Assembly: GCA_949480205.1 (NCBI GenBank)
Contig: CASXXK010000003.1
Location: forward strand, 1 to 60,049
DNA length: 60,049 nucleotides
Source of the DNA: an uncultured Candidatus Saccharibacteria bacterium
GTDB taxonomy: Bacteria > Patescibacteriota > Saccharimonadia > Saccharimonadales > Saccharimonadaceae
Reading direction: 5' to 3'
In this document: positions 2,552 to 16,189 of the stretch, in pieces
Numbering within the stretch: position 1 is the stretch's first letter
How the letters are laid out: each line of letters opens with the position of its first letter
Notes under the pieces: generated by a model
What the model saw: only the letters and a program-made list of their open reading frames with translations
Told to the model about the DNA's origin: nothing
Database searches by the model: none
Position numbers and translations under genes: made by a program

Positions 2552-3514
2552 ATGCAGCGCGAAGAATTTACAATCAAAAGTCAACACGATAATCTGGAAC
2601 TGGGCGTTAGTCTAAGAATCCCAGCCGGCAAACCACGGGGGATTTTGCAGCTAGTGCACGGCATGGCGGAGCACCGTGAACGTTACCATGATTTTATGGA
2701 TTATTGCGCTAAGCAGGGATTTGTAGTAATCATTCACGACCATCGTGGACACGGTGCGAGCGTCAAATCCGCCGAAGATTATGGCTATTTTTATCAAAAT
2801 GGCGTACAGGGAATTATTGATGACGTGCATCAAGTGACGGAATATGTTAAGCATCGATTTCCAGGGTTGCCACTGACGCTGCTTGGACATAGTATGGGTT
2901 CACTAGTAGTGCGCTGCTATATGCAGCAGTATGATGCGGATGTGGATGGACTGATAGTCTGCGGCTCGCCCAGTAAGCGTATTAGTGCGGGCACCGGTAA
3001 GTTGATTGCTAAATTCTTGCAAATCTTTCATGGTGATAAATATCGCAGTAAATTCGTCAACCAACTAGCGTTCGGCGGGTATAACCAGAAATCTGCCAAG
3101 TTAGCGCGTCAAAACGGCCAGCATGTAGACATGAATGGGCATTATCCAACGCCAAACTCTTGGATTGTAAGTGACCCAGCAGTAGTGGCAGCTTACGATG
3201 CTGACCCGCGCGATGGCTTCACCTTCACTTTGAATGGCTTTGAGACACTGTTTGGTTTGGTGCAACGGGCGTATAGTAAGCAGGGTTGGAAAATGGCGAA
3301 CCCTGAGGCGCCGATTTTCTTTATTTCCGGTGCTGACGATCCGTGCTTGATTAGCCATAAAGATTTCGCCAAGGCGGTGAATTTTATGCGCCAACGAGGG
3401 TATCAGCATGTTACGAGCAAGCTTTATCCTGGCATGCGGCACGAAATCCTCAACGAAGTCGGTAAAGCAGAAGTTTGGCGCGATGTGGTGGTGCATTTGC
3501 AAAGCGTGCTATAA
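2552..3514 (+). CDS. Alpha/beta hydrolase, monoacylglycerol-lipase-like
   Basis: A serine hydrolase of the Hydrolase_4 (lysophospholipase/monoacylglycerol lipase) type, 320 residues, without a signal peptide. Key parts are LVHGMAEHRERY (oxyanion region), HDHRGHGAS, the nucleophile elbow GHSMGS with Ser114, the acid-bearing SGADDPC, and the terminal His in GMRHEIL. Its likely role is processing host-derived lipids, which is inferred. TATAAT at 2540-2545 ends 6 nt before the ATG and no ribosome-binding site is visible, so the mRNA is probably leaderless; TTGACA lies at 2515-2520. Confidence 0.9.
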   Translation: MQREEFTIKSQHDNLELGVSLRIPAGKPRGILQLVHGMAEHRERYHDFMDYCAKQGFVVIIHDHRGHGASVKSAEDYGYFYQNGVQGIIDDVHQVTEYVKHRFPGLPLTLLGHSMGSLVVRCYMQQYDADVDGLIVCGSPSKRISAGTGKLIAKFLQIFHGDKYRSKFVNQLAFGGYNQKSAKLARQNGQHVDMNGHYPTPNSWIVSDPAVVAAYDADPRDGFTFTLNGFETLFGLVQRAYSKQGWKMANPEAPIFFISGADDPCLISHKDFAKAVNFMRQRGYQHVTSKLYPGMRHEILNEVGKAEVWRDVVVHLQSVL

Positions 3515-3533
3515 TATAATTATTATCAATTAA

Positions 3534-3625
3534 TAGAGTAGGATCAAAATAGTTAAGACTTGCGGGACGGGAAGTTGTTCGCAAGGCAAGGGTAACCGCT
3601 GATTTTGGTTCGCATTCCGCTATGA
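3534..3625 (+). promoter_or_regulatory. Candidate tetrahydrofolate (THF) riboswitch
   Basis: The leader of the ECF S gene carries the ordered landmarks of the class I THF aptamer: GAGTAG at the 5' side, ATCAAAAT pairing with ATTTTGGT (P2), GTTAAG, a CTTGCG/CGCAAG stem (P3) enclosing GGACGGGAAG, then GCAAGGGTAACCGCTGA and GCATTCCGCT at the 3' side. CCGCTAT (3617-3623) can also pair with ATAGCGG (3652-3658) next to the AAGGAG ribosome-binding site, a plausible translation switch. It fits a folate transporter operon. I matched it by eye, not by covariance model. Confidence 0.75.
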
Positions 3626-3670
3626 TGAGAGTGCTTTTGCCAACCTCGTAAATAGCGGGGAAGGAGTTTT

Positions 3671-4249
3671 ATGTCAAACCACCACCCCGCGTCCCGGACC
3701 ATGCCACGGGCGCGCAAGGTAATTTTAACCGCAATTTTGATTGCACTCACGATTGTGCTACAGCGCTTGTTGGCGTTCCGGACGCCAATTATCCAAATTA
3801 ACTTCATGTTTGTGCCGATAATGTTGGCCGGGATGTTGCTGGGCTGGCCAGGAGCGACTTTTGTCGCAACGGTAGCGGACTTGATCGGCGCGATATTGTT
3901 CCCATCGGGTAGCTTTTTCTTTGGTTACACACTGACGGCAATCTTGACCGGGTTTACGGCGGGAATTTGTTTGTATCGCCCCGACGGTGTCAAGCTTGAC
4001 CGTAATTTTGTAATTCGGCTGGTACTTTGCATCTTGATTATTACGGGCGTCTTAAACGGTGGGCTAAATACAATTTGGGTCTTGATGATGACAGGCGACG
4101 CAAGTAATATTATTGTGCCGGTGCGAATCGTGAAGCAATTAGTGATGGCGCCGATTATGCTGTTGACGATGTTGGCGCTGATGAAAATCTTTGCTCCGCG
4201 CCTGAATCGCCTGCTGGGAGTTGAGCGTGATCAGACTCAAACAGTTTAG
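3671..4249 (+). CDS. folT: ECF transporter substrate-binding (S) component, folate family
   Basis: Integral membrane S component of an energy-coupling-factor vitamin importer, 192 residues with about six hydrophobic segments after a short basic N terminus. GLNTIWVLMMTG followed by an Arg-containing helix resembles FolT proteins, and the THF-type riboswitch upstream supports folate as substrate. ATG follows AAGGAG by 5 nt. Its stop overlaps the A-component start, so S, A and T are made together. Folate specificity is inferred from family pattern and riboswitch; another vitamin is possible. Confidence 0.8.
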   Translation: MSNHHPASRTMPRARKVILTAILIALTIVLQRLLAFRTPIIQINFMFVPIMLAGMLLGWPGATFVATVADLIGAILFPSGSFFFGYTLTAILTGFTAGICLYRPDGVKLDRNFVIRLVLCILIITGVLNGGLNTIWVLMMTGDASNIIVPVRIVKQLVMAPIMLLTMLALMKIFAPRLNRLLGVERDQTQTV

Positions 4250-5045
4250 CTGTGGCTACCCCAACAGCCCAGTTTTAGCGCAAACGGATTTGACAATTGC
4301 TGCAGGCAAAATTACCGTCGTAATCGGACGAAATGGTAGTGGTAAATCTACCCTAGCACAAGTTCTCGCCGGGCTAAAACTCGATTTTTCCGGAGAAGTT
4401 TGGTTGGATGAGTTGCACCTGAAGCGTTCTACGCCGATGCGCGAATTGCGCCAAAAAGTTGGCCTAGTACTGCAGAATCCCGATCACCAAATTTTGTTCG
4501 GTAGAGTGCAGGACGAAATCAGCTTTGCGCTGCAAAATCTTGCACTACCAGAGATTACCGATTTACCTAAGGATAAACGCGCACGGCAATCAGCTATTCA
4601 AGCTAAACGCCAAGAGATAGTGCTTGAAGTGTTGACGCAAGTAGGCTTGGCGGACAAAATTAATGCTAATCCACGCGAGCTCTCGGGCGGGCAAAAACAA
4701 CGTCTAGCTTTGGCTAGCGCGCTAGCTTTGCACCCGGAATATCTCATCTTAGATGAGGTGGCCTCCATGCTGGACTTGCCTAGTCGGCGTAGTGTATATC
4801 GGATTATAGAAAAACTCAAGCAACAGGGAATTGGCGTTGTGATGATGACTAATTTGCTGGATGAGATTCTACTAGCGGATACGGTGTTGATCTTGGATAA
4901 TGGCAAGGTTACTATCGTAACCCCAGCGGAGATTATTCGCAACCTGGACATATTAACCCAGCATGGCTTGGAGGCGCCACTTTTGCTGCAGGTGGCGAAA
5001 AAAATCAATGTAGAGAGCCTACGCGACTTACAGGATAAACTATGA
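4227..5045 (+). CDS. ecfA: ECF transporter ATPase (A) component
   Basis: Energises the importer by ATP hydrolysis at the inner membrane face. Motifs are GRNGSGKST (Walker A), LVLQNPDHQ (Q-loop), LSGGQKQRLALA (signature) and YLILDEVASMLD (Walker B/D-loop). The switch region reads VVMMTNLLDEI, so the usual His is Asn. GTG at 4227 lies 6 nt after GGGAG and is preferred over TTG at 4221. It overlaps folT by 23 nt. Only one ATPase gene is present, so the complex would carry two copies of it or borrow another. Confidence 0.9.
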   Translation: MIRLKQFSCGYPNSPVLAQTDLTIAAGKITVVIGRNGSGKSTLAQVLAGLKLDFSGEVWLDELHLKRSTPMRELRQKVGLVLQNPDHQILFGRVQDEISFALQNLALPEITDLPKDKRARQSAIQAKRQEIVLEVLTQVGLADKINANPRELSGGQKQRLALASALALHPEYLILDEVASMLDLPSRRSVYRIIEKLKQQGIGVVMMTNLLDEILLADTVLILDNGKVTIVTPAEIIRNLDILTQHGLEAPLLLQVAKKINVESLRDLQDKL

Positions 5046-5611
5046 AAGCTGCGCTGCTAATCTTGGGATTTATCATATATAATATATGGTTATTCTGGGT
5101 GGAGGATTATTGGGTTTTGGCCGGTCTACTGGTTATCGATTTGCTCTACTTATTCTGTCGGCGACGCAATTGGCGAGCGCAAGGGCACTTTTTGCTAAAA
5201 AATTGTGGCTTTGTGACGTTCGTGGTTCTGTGTAATCTGCTGATTTCTGATTGGCAACAGGCGCTATTGCTAGGAGCTAGGCTAGGACTGGCGATTGAGG
5301 CAACTTATATTATTTCGCAAATCTTAAGTATGCAGGAATTTGCGCAGGGAATAGCAGGCTTGTGTGCTCCGTTGAGACTTTTTAAAGTTGATACTGACGA
5401 ATTGGCTTTGAGTGTGGCTGTAGCGCTGACTTTTGTTCCGCTACTGACCCGAGAAGCTAAGCAGTTACAAAATAATCTCAAACTCAAGGGTTGTACTTGG
5501 AAAACACTATGCCGACAGCCGCAGGTCTACGTGATTGGAATTGTGACACAGCTTCTGGACTACGCCGAAGCCGCAGAGCAGGCTCTGCGGCTAAAAGGCT
5601 ATAACCAATAG
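5042..5611 (+). CDS. ecfT: ECF transporter transmembrane (T) component
   Basis: Membrane scaffold that couples the ATPase to the S component. The 189-residue protein has several hydrophobic helices and ends with two short motifs, LKLKGCTW and LRLKGYNQ, at the places where EcfT proteins carry their paired Ala-Arg-Gly-type coupling motifs. It is shorter than typical EcfT (about 250-270 residues). The start ATG overlaps the ecfA stop as ATGA. It completes a minimal S-A-T operon. Confidence 0.85.
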   Translation: MKAALLILGFIIYNIWLFWVEDYWVLAGLLVIDLLYLFCRRRNWRAQGHFLLKNCGFVTFVVLCNLLISDWQQALLLGARLGLAIEATYIISQILSMQEFAQGIAGLCAPLRLFKVDTDELALSVAVALTFVPLLTREAKQLQNNLKLKGCTWKTLCRQPQVYVIGIVTQLLDYAEAAEQALRLKGYNQ

Positions 5612-5614
5612 CAA

Positions 5615-8155
5615 TTAGTATCTTGGCGCCAGTTCACGCGTATAACTTTCGGTATAACTAGAATCGTAACGTCCGGCCTGAGCGTAAGCCCAGAGGTAAG
5701 TATCGGCGCGTAGGTTGAAGACTTCGCCAGCGGCTTGCCGTGTGGAAGCGGTGCCAAAGGTGCCAGTGCGCGTTATCAGAGGATCAGCACCGAAGGAGCG
5801 AGTAAGAACTAAGTTATTTGCTAGCACTGGTCCGTTAAATACGAGCTGTTTATTGCAAGTGTCACGAAGACGGCTAATGGCGTCAGCTTCAGTGAGACCA
5901 GATTGGAATTCGCTACAAGTATTGATTTTGCCGTCCACTATTAGCCAGGCATCAATCCGAGTAACATCGCTAGCAATTTCTAGATCACCGTGTACGAAAA
6001 TCACAACTTGTGGAACATGATAAATGCTGTTGTATGGTCCAGGCGCGGTGGTGATGTTGCCAGTGATTTTGAGATTGCCATCATAGCGCAAAATCCTTGT
6101 GTCCGATACATTCGACATTGCTCCGAGCTCGCTACCCCCAGGGCGCATGGCTTGGTTCTCGAGGAAAGTGGTGAGACGAGTGCGGTAAGTAGAATTATTG
6201 AATATTCCCGAACTACCCAACTTACCATTGTTTGAAATCGTAAGCGTAGAGTTGTCGAGCGTGAGTGGATTGCTCTTGGGCGCAGCCAAGTTCTTGGAGC
6301 CAATCGCGAAGCTGGAGCCAGAACCAAAGTAAGTCACATTGCGTCCAATAGCTGCCAGGTGCTCTACCCAGGCACCGTAGAGGGTCTTGAAACCTCCAGC
6401 GCTAGACTCGGTTCCCATTATGGGGCTGTCGAAACGCGGCGAAGACGAAGTAGTAATACCGCCAGCAGTCATCATATTGCTATTCCAGATTGCCACGGTT
6501 GGTTTTTTGGCGATGGTACGGCAACTCGCATCTTGAATACGCCAATAAGATTTATCAAAATTCCATCCATCACCACCACTGCTAGAAGAGTACCACCAAT
6601 ATTCGTAACGATAACCGAACGAATTACAATACTTGTAGCCCACTTGGTCTGGTACTACGATGTTGGCGGATTCATTATACGAATGGCTCTGACCACTGTC
6701 ACCGAAACTGCCACTACGACCATTAAGAATATTGCAGTAGTCATGATTGCTATACCACTGACAGACGTTAAGCGACTGATTGCCTTGTAAGTTTCCTCTA
6801 GTCCCAGTATATAAGCTTGAAGAATTTAACACATTAACATTGACTCGGTAGACCACAGCCTGCCACTCGCGTAGGCGACGAGTGTCAACACTGCCGCCAT
6901 TTACGTTCCAACTAATGTCAGCAGTTTCACCGGCAAACATTACATTACTACTGGTAGAGCCAGTGCCGCCAGTACCGTCACCAGTATCTGGACCATCAGG
7001 ACGAAAAACGGTAGCACAGACACTAGACTGTCCGTTCCCAGAGCCAGTAGGATTATTATAGATATAATAATCTGGGGTTGCGCCAGCCTTCAATGTGCTA
7101 GTACCAGTAATATAAGCACTGGCAGGATAATGAGCTGTTTTTGTATATGTGATATATTTTGGATCATATGCAACAGTTTGACACACGGTCTTTGTCTGAC
7201 CAGGGTCTAATGTTACCGTTACGGTAGGTGACAATACCTCACTACTAGTGGAAGCGCCGTCGGCAGCTGTAAGCTTGGTATCCGTATGGATACTGTTACC
7301 GCGACTACCGGAACTATTAGATTGGTAAACATTCCATGTCGTATCAGTATCATCAACAACGTCACTAGCGCCAAAAGTAGTCTCGTTTGTGTACCCTACC
7401 GTGTGAGTAAATTTAATCCTTACGGACGGCAAATCGGTACTAAACTTGATATCTGCTGTGCCGTCCTCTGTGGAAGTTGCTACGATGCCAGACGGCACGT
7501 CAGCGCCAGCGACGGCTTCTACCTTTGACTTAGACCAGAAATGACCGTTGGACGTGCTCGGCGTCGGAGTTGGAGGGACGGGGCAATCTGGATCGCCTGG
7601 AGGACAATCCCAAGATGAGTCATAGCAGAACGCCCCCGTTTCTAGCCATGAAGTCTTTGTAACGCCATAACTCTCGGCTACCAAAAAAGCTGCGTTTGCC
7701 GTACTCCAAGAAACGGCATTTCGATCTTCTCGCAAGATTGTATTTGGTGATTGCGCTAAAGCTACATCTAGCAACCCGTCATAAACATAGCTAGTGCCAC
7801 CTTTATAATTGAACACAAGATTCGACTCGCTGCCTTCTAGAGATGTTCGTAGATAGGATAGACGATAATATCCATCTATGCCAGGACACTCCAAAGATGA
7901 TGCCCCCGGACCAGTTATATTCACGTGCGAAGTCGATGGATCCTTGCTCTCATAAAACCATGCCACGCCCAAGCGTGAACATAAGTGATATTTGCCATCA
8001 TTTAAGAATCCTATAATATTGGTACAGCTTCCAGCTGCTCCAGGTGCTGTCGAATCACCAACAGCTGCCGAAACGGGATACCAATTAACTAATGCAGCAA
8101 CAAAAGTCACCACGGGTAATAAGAAGAGATAACCCTTTATATTTTTATGCGCCAT
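5615..8155 (-). CDS. Large exported protein, possible surface/adhesin protein
   Basis: Unrecognised 846-residue secreted protein. A lysine-containing N terminus and a hydrophobic stretch (YLFLLPVVTFVAALV) end near VSA, a signal peptide. The mature part is Ser/Thr/Gly/Asn/Tyr-rich, with an acidic proline linker around residue 190 (CPPGDPDCPVPPTPTP) and many cysteines. The C-terminal 200 residues (GDLEIASDVTRIDAWLIVDG, FNGPVLANNLVLTR) look like beta-rich export-associated domains and end FNLRADTYLWAYAQ. It starts 6 nt after the upstream gene, which encodes a membrane-anchored helper. Confidence 0.7.
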   Translation of the reverse strand: MAHKNIKGYLFLLPVVTFVAALVNWYPVSAAVGDSTAPGAAGSCTNIIGFLNDGKYHLCSRLGVAWFYESKDPSTSHVNITGPGASSLECPGIDGYYRLSYLRTSLEGSESNLVFNYKGGTSYVYDGLLDVALAQSPNTILREDRNAVSWSTANAAFLVAESYGVTKTSWLETGAFCYDSSWDCPPGDPDCPVPPTPTPSTSNGHFWSKSKVEAVAGADVPSGIVATSTEDGTADIKFSTDLPSVRIKFTHTVGYTNETTFGASDVVDDTDTTWNVYQSNSSGSRGNSIHTDTKLTAADGASTSSEVLSPTVTVTLDPGQTKTVCQTVAYDPKYITYTKTAHYPASAYITGTSTLKAGATPDYYIYNNPTGSGNGQSSVCATVFRPDGPDTGDGTGGTGSTSSNVMFAGETADISWNVNGGSVDTRRLREWQAVVYRVNVNVLNSSSLYTGTRGNLQGNQSLNVCQWYSNHDYCNILNGRSGSFGDSGQSHSYNESANIVVPDQVGYKYCNSFGYRYEYWWYSSSSGGDGWNFDKSYWRIQDASCRTIAKKPTVAIWNSNMMTAGGITTSSSPRFDSPIMGTESSAGGFKTLYGAWVEHLAAIGRNVTYFGSGSSFAIGSKNLAAPKSNPLTLDNSTLTISNNGKLGSSGIFNNSTYRTRLTTFLENQAMRPGGSELGAMSNVSDTRILRYDGNLKITGNITTAPGPYNSIYHVPQVVIFVHGDLEIASDVTRIDAWLIVDGKINTCSEFQSGLTEADAISRLRDTCNKQLVFNGPVLANNLVLTRSFGADPLITRTGTFGTASTRQAAGEVFNLRADTYLWAYAQAGRYDSSYTESYTRELAPRY

Positions 8156-12843: not shown

Positions 12844-15207
12844 ATGTTCAAAAAAATTGTGAAACGGGATGGGAAAATTGTAGATTTTGACCCAGAAAAA
12901 ATTACTGAAGCTATTGTTAAGGCCGGGCTTTCAACTGAAGAATTCAAGCGCGATCGTGCTAAGCAATTAGCGGAGAAGGCTGTTAAGCGGGCGCAGGAAA
13001 CCATTAAGCAACGCACGCCGTCAGTCGAGCAGATTCAAGACATCGTTGAAGAAGTTTTGATGGAATCAGCTTTCAAGAAAACTGCCAAGGAATATATTAC
13101 TTACCGCCAAGAGCGCAACCGCGTACGCGAAGCCAAGAGCAACTTGATGAACATCTACAAGACAATTGCTGTGGCAGACGCTTCTGAAGATTCCGATGTG
13201 AAGCGTGGCAATGCTAATGTTGACGGCAACTCTGCTATGGGCAAGATGTTACAGTTCGGCGCTGAGGGCTCCAAAATCTTTGCCAAGACCTTGTTGATGA
13301 AGCCAGAATTTGCTCGTGCACACGATGATGGTGATATTCACGTGCACGACCTTGATTTTTACGCTACCGGTACGTTGACCTGCTGTCAGACCGATCCCTT
13401 GCAGTTGTTTGCCGACGGTGGGTTCAATACCGGTCACGGTCATCTGCGTACCCCGAACTCTATTGGCAGCTACGGTGCGCTCGCAGCAATTATTCTGCAG
13501 GCCAACCAAAATGAGCAACATGGTGGTCAAAGTATTCCTAACTTCGACTACGCCATGGCGCCAGGTGTCAACAAGAGTTTCCGCAAAGCATTGAGCCGTG
13601 CGATTCGTCAGTACAATCGTTTCAGCGGCAACAAAGAAATCGAAGTTAAGATTCCTGAAGACCTTGAATATGGTGACGAAAAGGCTCTCAAGAAGCTGAA
13701 ATTGCCAGATGGCATCATCGAAAGCGCAAACGAAGATGTGGCGCGCCAGACATTCCAGGCTATGGAAGGTTTCATTCACAATCTCAATACGATGCATAGC
13801 CGCGCGGGTGCACAGGTGCCATTCACTAGTATCAACTTTGGTACAGATACTAGCGAAGCTGGTCGCTTGGTAGTACGCTGCTTGCTTGATGCTACTGAAG
13901 ATGGTTTGGGCCACGGCGAGACGCCAATCTTCCCAATTTCAATCTTCAAAGTTAAAGAGGGTGTCAACTACAATCCTGGCGATCCGAACTACGATTTGTT
14001 CAAACGCTCAATGGAAGTTAGTGCCAAACGCCTCTTCCCGAACTTCGTCTTTATTGATGCGCCATTCAACTTGGAGGGCTATGTGCCAGGCGATTATCGT
14101 ACCGAGATTGCCACGATGGGCTGCCGCACGCGCGTCTATGGTAGTATCTTCCCAGAAAGCGACCATATTACTACCGGTCGTGGCAACTGTAGCTTTACCA
14201 CTATCAACCTAGTACGTTTGGGCATCAAACACGGTATTGCTTTGGGTGAGCGCAAAGAGGCCGACTGGTCTGGTTTCTACAAAGATCTCGACGAAAAGAT
14301 GGACCTCTGTGCTGATGAGCTGCTCGAACGCTATGAGTTCCAAGCCAATCAGCACGTACGCAACTTCCCATTCTTGATGGGTGAGCACAACTGGTTTGGT
14401 AGCGAGAAGCTAGGTTGGAACGATACTTTACGCGATGTCATCAAACACGGGACACTCAGTATTGGCTTCATCGGTTTGGCTGAATGTCTAGTAGCAATGA
14501 CTGGCAAGCACCACGGCGAAGATGAAGAATCTCGTGAACTTGGCCTCGACATTATCACTCACATGCGTGAACGCTGCGATATGTACATGAAGAAATACCA
14601 TCTCAACTTTAGCCTTTTGGCTACCCCAGCTGAAGGTATTGCTGGCCGTTTCACCAAGATTGACCGCAAAGAATATGGTGCCATCAAGGGTGTTTGTGAC
14701 CGCGATTACTACACCAACAGCTTCCATGTGCCGGTATATTATCCGATCAGCGCTTTTGATAAAATCGAAATCGAAGCTCCATATCACGCACTCTGTAACG
14801 CTGGTCATATTACCTACATTGAGCTTGATGGTGACCCAACTCAGAACATCGAAGCTTTTGAGGCTGTCATTCGCAAAATGAAGGAGAGTGGTATTGGCTA
14901 TGGTAGTGTGAACCACCCAGTAGACCGCGACCCGGTTTGCGGCTACTCTGGCATTATCGAAGGCGATCGCTGTCCGTCCTGCGGACGTCACGAGAGCGAA
15001 GGGGACGTGCCGTTTGAACGCTTGCGCCGTATTACGGGTTACCTAGTAGGCAGCTTGGAGCGCTGGAATGACGGTAAAAAGGCCGAGGAACATGACCGCG
15101 TGAAGCACACTGTCGCTTGCAACAAAGCCGGCGTCTATACTCCAGAAGAGAAGAGTAAGCGCGAGGCTGCCAAGCGTACGCAAAAGTCAATGACGGGGAA
15201 GAAGTAG
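12844..15207 (+). CDS. nrdD: Anaerobic (class III) ribonucleoside-triphosphate reductase
   Basis: Reduces ribonucleoside triphosphates to deoxy forms with a glycyl radical, in the cytoplasm without oxygen. The 787 residues start with an ATP-cone regulatory domain (KIVKRDGKIVDFDPEKI), then the catalytic barrel, a zinc-ribbon-like DPVCGYSGII...CPSCGR, and the glycyl-radical segment RRITGYLVG near the C terminus. The start follows AAGAGGAGG. The 5' leader holds the NrdR boxes. Its stop overlaps the nrdG start by one base (TAGTG). It is the only RNR in the window and implies anaerobic growth. Confidence 0.96.
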   Translation: MFKKIVKRDGKIVDFDPEKITEAIVKAGLSTEEFKRDRAKQLAEKAVKRAQETIKQRTPSVEQIQDIVEEVLMESAFKKTAKEYITYRQERNRVREAKSNLMNIYKTIAVADASEDSDVKRGNANVDGNSAMGKMLQFGAEGSKIFAKTLLMKPEFARAHDDGDIHVHDLDFYATGTLTCCQTDPLQLFADGGFNTGHGHLRTPNSIGSYGALAAIILQANQNEQHGGQSIPNFDYAMAPGVNKSFRKALSRAIRQYNRFSGNKEIEVKIPEDLEYGDEKALKKLKLPDGIIESANEDVARQTFQAMEGFIHNLNTMHSRAGAQVPFTSINFGTDTSEAGRLVVRCLLDATEDGLGHGETPIFPISIFKVKEGVNYNPGDPNYDLFKRSMEVSAKRLFPNFVFIDAPFNLEGYVPGDYRTEIATMGCRTRVYGSIFPESDHITTGRGNCSFTTINLVRLGIKHGIALGERKEADWSGFYKDLDEKMDLCADELLERYEFQANQHVRNFPFLMGEHNWFGSEKLGWNDTLRDVIKHGTLSIGFIGLAECLVAMTGKHHGEDEESRELGLDIITHMRERCDMYMKKYHLNFSLLATPAEGIAGRFTKIDRKEYGAIKGVCDRDYYTNSFHVPVYYPISAFDKIEIEAPYHALCNAGHITYIELDGDPTQNIEAFEAVIRKMKESGIGYGSVNHPVDRDPVCGYSGIIEGDRCPSCGRHESEGDVPFERLRRITGYLVGSLERWNDGKKAEEHDRVKHTVACNKAGVYTPEEKSKREAAKRTQKSMTGKK

Positions 15208-15698
15208 TGCAGATTCGACTTTCCGGTCCACTAGAGCACGATAATATCGTCAATGGGTACGGCCTTCGGGCCGTACTCTGGACCCAAGGCTGTGCCCGGC
15301 ACTGTATGGGTTGTCAGAACCCCGAAACTTGGGACTTTGACGGTGGCTTCATGGTGGAAGTGGACGAAATTAAAGACCGCCTGAGAGAGTTCAAAGGCCA
15401 AGCGGGCATCACGTTTTGTGGTGGAGAGCCTTTTGAACAACCTGAAGCCTGTCTAGAAATTAGTAACTGGTGTCGTCAAGAATTTGGGTGGAATGTTTGG
15501 AGCTTTAGTGGCTATACCTACGAACAACTTCAAGAAATTGGCGGCGCCAAGTGGGAGTTCCTCAAGAGCTTAGACGCTCTGATTGACGGGCCATTTATCC
15601 TGGCCGAACGTGATTTGACTGTGAAATTCCGCGGTTCACGTAACCAACGGTTACTGCATCTTGAATATGGCACCGGTAAAATTTTGGAGATTGAGTGA
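15207..15698 (+). CDS. nrdG: Anaerobic ribonucleotide reductase activase
   Basis: A radical-SAM enzyme that installs the glycyl radical on NrdD. The 163 residues carry TQGCARHCMGCQNPETW with the Cx3Cx2C iron-sulfur motif, and TFCGGEPFEQ, the SAM-binding GGE. The GTG start overlaps the nrdD stop (TAGTG), so translation is coupled. The next gene, folA, overlaps its stop by one base. Confidence 0.95.
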   Translation: MQIRLSGPLEHDNIVNGYGLRAVLWTQGCARHCMGCQNPETWDFDGGFMVEVDEIKDRLREFKGQAGITFCGGEPFEQPEACLEISNWCRQEFGWNVWSFSGYTYEQLQEIGGAKWEFLKSLDALIDGPFILAERDLTVKFRGSRNQRLLHLEYGTGKILEIE

Positions 15699-16189
15699 TG
15701 AAGAATTTAGCAATGATCGCTTGCGTCAGTCGCGATGGTGGCCTAGGAAAAGGGAATGACTTACTTTGGCGTTTTCCAGAAGACCAGAAATTTTTCCGCG
15801 ACACCACTATGGGGAGCGCAATCGTCATGGGGGGCAAAACGTTTGCTAGCATTGGACGAGCATTGCCAGGACGAGAAAATATCGTGTTGTCGCGATCTGA
15901 AATTACTAATGACGACGTAAAAGTTTTCCATGATAAGGTGGAGCTTGATGGGCATTTGGATTCTTTGCCAGGCAAAAAGTTCATTATTGGTGGAGCAAGT
16001 CTCTACGAAATGTACTTACCAGAAGCAGAGATAATTTATTTGACTGAAGTAGATGCTAATAAGCCAGCGGACGTCTTTTTCCCCAGATTAAATCGTCAGC
16101 AATACACAGCAGAAGTTCTACGGGCTGGCGAAACTAACGGCGTGAAATATCAGATAATTAAATATACCCGAAAGGAAACGAAATGTTGA
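15698..16189 (+). CDS. folA: Dihydrofolate reductase
   Basis: Reduces dihydrofolate to tetrahydrofolate with NADPH. Seen are MIACVSRDGGLGKGNDLLWRFPED (the Met20-loop and active acid region), VMGGKTFASIG, LPGRENIVLSR and the FIIGGASLYEMY nucleotide-binding segment; 163-164 residues is typical. GTG at 15695 is a possible alternative start one codon earlier. It is coupled to nrdG, so dNTP supply and folate turnover share one NrdR-controlled operon. With the folate-type ECF importer it supports folate salvage. Confidence 0.93.
   Translation: MKNLAMIACVSRDGGLGKGNDLLWRFPEDQKFFRDTTMGSAIVMGGKTFASIGRALPGRENIVLSRSEITNDDVKVFHDKVELDGHLDSLPGKKFIIGGASLYEMYLPEAEIIYLTEVDANKPADVFFPRLNRQQYTAEVLRAGETNGVKYQIIKYTRKETKC

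Follow-up and report, generated by a model that had tools for sequence, protein, structure and literature searches.

In a member of the Saccharibacteria, a THF-I riboswitch very probably governs the expression of a dedicated folate importer and would switch import off at sufficient folate. Both lie within a stretch of 60,049 nucleotides (referred to as the window) from an uncultured Candidatus Saccharibacteria bacterium (assembly GCA_949480205.1, contig CASXXK010000003.1). Most cofactor pathways are missing from CPR bacteria, and the host-dependent bacterium considered here probably adjusts its folate uptake to supply. The THF-I class (RF01831) was reportedly described by Ames in 2010 and by Trausch and Huang in 2011, and its P1 to P4 architecture, conserved L3 and 3′ strands and location upstream of folT are all found again in the window. 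The window aptamer differs from known THF-I members in its host phylum, in a junction that is missing a U, a bulged G and the first base of GAA, in its AU-rich P1, and in an expression platform that by eye is unlike those of Firmicutes comparators. Judged by its sequence, the aptamer is a genuine THF-I member found outside the usual phyla in an unexpected lineage, and is ordinary in principle. THF-II riboswitches (the folE motif) share only the ligand class with THF-I; passages of PMC6800512 describe them as simple in architecture and located ahead of folE in Rhizobiales.

An Rfam scan (cmscan) of the whole window recovered one THF aptamer and four tRNAs. The aptamer match on the forward strand at 3532–3624 scores 56.5 bits (E = 4.6e-10), about 20 bits over the gathering score of 36 bits, and covers the model from position 1 to 99 of 99. 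It is the sole THF match in the 855 kb genome and is located upstream of folT at a distance of 46 nt. The preliminary description had recognized a THF aptamer by the order of its motifs and proposed the Rfam model as a check; the full-length match agrees, and the individual elements fall where they were read, namely GAGTAG (3536–3541), GTTAAG (3552–3557), the L3 loop ACGGGAAGTTG (3567–3577) and CGCATTCCGCT (3611–3621). The features of the aptamer region are as follows.

3510–3515, forward strand: probable −10 box TATAAT, read directly, just 5′ of the aptamer
3532–3624, forward strand: THF-I riboswitch aptamer RF01831 (full-length match at 56.5 bits; covariation in four relatives)
3541–3553 with 3598–3600 and 3602–3611, forward strand: P2 (Rfam match, covariation)
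3557 and 3559–3566 with 3578–3585 and 3587, forward strand: P3 (Rfam match, covariation)
3590–3591 with 3596–3597, forward strand: P4 (Rfam match, covariation)
3567–3577, forward strand: L3 loop ACGGGAAGTTG, predicted half of the pseudoknot ligand site (Rfam alignment)

Boxes like TATAAT also precede the aptamer in two genomes of the same genus, G172 and G169; a promoter consensus scan instead paired another, weaker set of hexamers at 3497–3526. Read from the sequence, GGAA of L3 can pair with TTCC at 3615–3618.

The aptamers of the window, G172, G169 and a fourth genome of the genus, G197, were aligned without reference to structure and then scored on the 29 pairs of the Rfam structure, a count that omits the pairs of P4 after the second as well as the position of an A/G mismatch. 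On this structure 97.4% of cells are paired, with changes on both sides in 12 of the 29 base pairs and a covariation of 0.609 for the four aptamers alone. All 500 shuffles fell short on each of the five measures, and structures slid along the alignment pair merely 34–48% of cells. The outermost pair of P1 is open in three of the four aptamers. These diverged sequences show no change in L3 or in the CGCAUUCCGCU strand, and since this invariance is accompanied by covariation beyond that of all 500 shuffles, the aptamer is under selection for structure and pocket and is not a chance resemblance. Its score lies below those of six Firmicutes aptamers (72.9–91.6 bits). The G197 aptamer (L005, 1501–1643) has an enlarged P4, with 51 positions falling in a gap of the Rfam alignment, and an aptamer of E. 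faecalis (L028) also carries a long P4 insert, of 71 positions.

The genes behind the aptamer, together with a DHFR gene further downstream, are listed below.

3671–4249, forward strand: folT, S component of the folate family of ECF transporters, 192 aa (TIGR04518, 109.9 bits, cut-off 60)
4221–5045, forward strand: ecfA, a single ECF ATPase (TIGR04520, 219.9 bits, below the equivalog cut-off of 315; PF00005, 98.6 bits)
5042–5611, forward strand: ecfT, transmembrane coupling protein (PF02361, 43.4 bits, cut-off 25)
15695–16189, forward strand: DHFR gene folA (PF00186, 140.7 bits), 10 kb downstream of the operon, after nrdD and nrdG

The FolT-like gene that had been noted behind the leader is confirmed by NCBIfam and Pfam as FolT accompanied by a lone ECF ATPase and EcfT, the last of which has no NCBIfam match of its own. 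FolT finds its best PDB match in 4z7f_A (E = 1.9e-18) and belongs to the same S-component family as the solved ECF folate transporters (TIGR04518; 4z7f, 5d0y, 5d3m, 4huq), and D70, N129, W136, R152 and K155 are invariant between it and the FolT proteins of Enterococcus and Roseburia. In the comparator stretches seen, annotated folT genes stand without adjoining ecfA or ecfT, whereas the folT of the window is followed by a single EcfA and by EcfT. Among 17 genomes searched, EcfT exceeded its cut-off in three, all of them aptamer carriers, and the contig of the fourth carrier (G197) ends before EcfT would be reached. The three genes probably form a folate importer. Because ecfA starts at TTG 4221 or GTG 4227, where it overlaps the last part of folT, and ecfT likewise begins before ecfA has ended, the three genes are probably translated in a coupled manner. 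Just past the operon, on the opposite strand (5615–8155), the window encodes a large Ser/Gly/Thr-rich protein with a signal-like start.

DHFR had also been named in the preliminary description, and is present at the coordinates listed above, with nrdD and nrdG identified by a profile scan; it is found in 154 of 174 genomes of the genus and is nothing special to this one. The suggestion that the organism is unable to make folate has gained support: FolP was not found in its genome (87.6% complete), nor in any of the 17 genomes searched, a set that contains all four carriers, by a search that recovered it from 13 of 14 controls. No carrier reached the FolC cut-off, against four of the 17 genomes overall; weaker matches were set aside because they resemble Mur ligases, as judged by score alone. 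With FolP undetected and DHFR in the window, folate salvage is plausible. The cell would probably import reduced or oxidised folate and then reduce it, with DHFR the likely consumer of what is imported.

The description of the genome as CPR-like proved correct, as the named relative with an 83% identical FolT is itself an uncultured Ca. Saccharibacteria MAG, in which the same aptamer (57.9 bits) lies ahead of folT. The aptamer is carried by four of 174 genomes of the genus (that of the window, G172, G169 and G197), and in all four folT is the next gene. In overlapping samples from the family, order and phylum it was found in 4 of 394, 3 of 392 and 1 of 379 genomes, respectively, and never outside this one genus, under stricter filters by which weak matches can be lost. 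FolT exceeded its cut-off in six of the 174 genomes, the four carriers and two (G002 and G117) that had no aptamer match. In a FolT tree of 11 rows, from which 40 N-terminal residues of G197 and the whole Vescimonas FolT were left out, the proteins of G002 and G117 sit on a long separate branch away from the carriers, and the four carriers fall to one side of a branch that sets them apart from five Firmicutes (support 87/87). FolT identity between carriers ranges from 37 to 83%, and their neighbourhoods are of three kinds: those of the window and G172 are alike, the G169 unit lies between dnaE-like and metG-like genes, and that of G197 adjoins nrdG and nrdD (gene names in the last two assigned by eye). 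From the three neighbourhoods and this spread of identities, the THF-folT unit is taken to be an old one among these bacteria, though either patchily distributed or mobile. In G197 (L010, 1744–2479) the unit directly follows nrdG, a place taken in the window, within 12844–16189, by DHFR. G002 (L012, 7817–9622) and G117 (C22, 48306–50075) have a second kind of FolT-family gene that adjoins folC and shows neither a THF aptamer nor a convincing EcfT; it is perhaps a different solution to folate uptake.

The four Saccharibacterial aptamers depart from the family in one place.

3557–3589, forward strand: deviating P2/P3/P4 junction (Rfam alignment of four carriers against seven comparators)

In every carrier an A at model position 27 faces G at 56, the bulged G of position 28 is absent, and the GAA of positions 58–60 is by eye reduced to AA (for the window and G172 the program aligned AAG). 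The U, the G and the GAA are kept in all seven comparators, none of which shows any of the three deviations, and the Rfam consensus gives G28 and CGAA in capitals. These comparators, few and biased, are five Firmicutes FolT leaders, Vescimonas and the viral contig L045, obtained from five plasmid FolT matches, one similarity to the L. eligens leader and one pattern scan; a further plasmid match (H6), equal in species and score to H5, was left out. The junction variant was present in no stretch of viral_contigs, a plasmid search with the leader gave no match, and no viral relatives of FolT were found. The key contact at the junction site is presumably U25. Under the mapping of the U7/A8/A34/U35/U42/G44 numbering that we take to hold for the window aptamer, equivalents of U7, A8, A34, U42 and G44 are present, and position 35 is C, which is also what the Rfam consensus gives and the Clostridia comparators carry, with U in Enterococcus. 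These six residues (U7, U35, U42, A8, A34 and G44) make up the pseudoknot ligand site, one of two in THF-I, which regulates, the other being the site at the P2/P3/P4 junction (PMC11477058). Passages of PMC6614920 hold the pseudoknot site to be more important for control, and according to parts of PMC6800512 some THF-I members bind their ligand 1:1, so that the junction site is not a strict defining feature of the class. The shared deviations suggest that the second ligand site has been lost or altered in the Saccharibacterial aptamers, that of the window possibly being a one-site version. It is conceivable, at somewhat less than even odds, that this THF-I branch gave up the junction site and retains a pseudoknot-only, non-cooperative switch suited to folate scavenging in a host-dependent bacterium. 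The junction change also amounts to a natural experiment on the role of the second THF-I site.

The expression platform of the window consists of the following elements.

3617–3623, forward strand: switching strand CCGCTAT, in which the conserved 3′ strand ends and which also contains the 3′ strand of P1 (Rfam match, shuffle test)
3652–3658, forward strand: ATAGCGG, complement of the switching strand, read directly and ending 2 nt before the Shine-Dalgarno sequence
3661–3666, forward strand: Shine-Dalgarno sequence AAGGAG, read directly
3685–3690, forward strand: CCCCGC in codons 5–7 of folT, able to pair with GCGGGG (3655–3660) once P1 has formed, as a hypothetical sequestering hairpin

CCCCGC is also found in G172, 3 nt closer to the start codon, and G172 has both strands. 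It had been proposed that CCGCTAT pairs either in the aptamer or with ATAGCGG, and the two are perfect 7-bp complements. For the window's leader, 31 of 2000 dinucleotide shuffles gave a Watson-Crick run as long and 23 of 2000 a duplex as stable. By energy against shuffled platforms, G172 (24 of 2000) and G169 (21) give similar results, whereas in G197 the helix is no better than dinucleotide shuffles (495 of 2000), and the shuffle tests thus back the proposed pairing for three leaders but not for the fourth. The platforms of the window and G172 are identical, so there are two independent cases for the switch helix and one without support.

Folding was carried out under constraints that impose either P1 or the alternative helix, for states picked after the sequences had been seen and with pseudoknot and ligand ignored. 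Near the full length of the leader the two states differ by no more than about 1 kcal/mol in the window and by about 1 kcal/mol in G169, and in the shortest transcripts the alternative helix is favoured by 8–10 kcal/mol. With P1 formed, the G169 Shine-Dalgarno sequence is covered by an 11-pair hairpin (unpaired 0.01), and with the alternative helix it is released (unpaired 0.58); as modelled, this is a textbook OFF-switch layout with a perfect anti-Shine-Dalgarno hairpin. The corresponding values in the two states are 0.64 and 0.60 for the window and 0.55 and 0.59 for G172, and the site in G197 is about equally open in both. Simple unconstrained folding of the window's leader gave no difference in access either, and with this equal access folding favours neither an ON nor an OFF direction for it. 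In its P1 state the Shine-Dalgarno sequence and the AUG come to lie within a hairpin closed by GCGGGG and the coding-sequence CCCCGC, and OFF control is inferred here. A terminator scan found no intrinsic terminator in the leader, and transcriptional control is therefore less likely.

The proposed mechanism is as follows. Reduced folate would bind where L3 and the CGCAUUCC strand form the pseudoknot and would hold P1 closed, which would withhold CCGCUAU from AUAGCGG. The freed AUAGCGGGG side could then help to hide the ribosome-binding site, in the window together with CCCCGC inside folT and in G169 through its anti-Shine-Dalgarno hairpin, so that import would cease once the cell is well supplied with folate. 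Under folate shortage P1 would open, CCGCUAU would pair with AUAGCGG and folT would be translated, with translation of ecfA and ecfT following via the overlapping reading frames. The scheme is supported by the Firmicutes comparators, whose FolT genes likewise lie behind THF aptamers.

The same elements could be read the other way round, as a real, folate-binding aptamer acting as an ON switch in which the alternative helix beside the Shine-Dalgarno sequence blocks ribosomes until ligand closes P1. That helix does end 2 nt before AAGGAG in the window, and folding gives no better access when it forms, but the layout of G169 is clear and opposite, it would make less sense for an importer to be turned up by what it imports, and the E. 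faecium leader L031 by eye resembles an anti-anti-Shine-Dalgarno OFF switch; the ON reading is accordingly considered unlikely. Slightly less probable still is an aptamer that has drifted, keeping its fold after losing the ability to bind or now binding another pterin or reduced cofactor. The junction changes common to all four carriers and scores below those of the Firmicutes members would fit such drift; against it, L3 and the CGCAUUCCGCU strand stay invariant while the helices change with compensation, which has the look of a kept pocket, and the gene behind the aptamer belongs to the folate family.

Contamination of the MAG by a Firmicute contig would account for the rarity of the element in the genus and for a class that passages of PMC3766115 describe as mostly limited to Firmicutes. 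It is nevertheless highly improbable, because two assemblies share one layout: in the separately assembled G172, aptamer and DHFR lie 11–12 kb apart on one contig, as in the window. The separation of the carriers' FolT from the five Firmicutes and the absence of the junction variant from all seven comparators speak in the same direction.

No published THF riboswitch from Saccharibacteria or other CPR was found in the open-licence literature, though Rfam members may include unremarked ones; if the reading is right, neither a folate riboswitch nor a regulated folate importer would, within that literature, have been described in CPR before. According to parts of PMC11974145, most CPR genomes contain folA, glyA and folD, and the CPR bins named there show no folate transporter; the paper proposes that hosts receive folate cofactors from their CPR partners, and treats the folate genes without riboswitch or FolT. 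Passages of PMC4508563 report that Parcubacteria yielded no riboflavin riboswitch. An importer under feedback control in four Saccharibacteria would argue for folate uptake, at least in this group, and bears on how CPR obtain and meter cofactors.

A wide THF pattern picked out 34 viral stretches, of which one (L045) exceeded the Rfam threshold and the other 33 were taken as chance. Contig L045 carries a full THF-I aptamer on the reverse strand (2768–2861); what follows it is no recognised folate gene but one for a protein of unrecognised kind whose start resembles a membrane anchor, and the same stretch also bears a SAM riboswitch.
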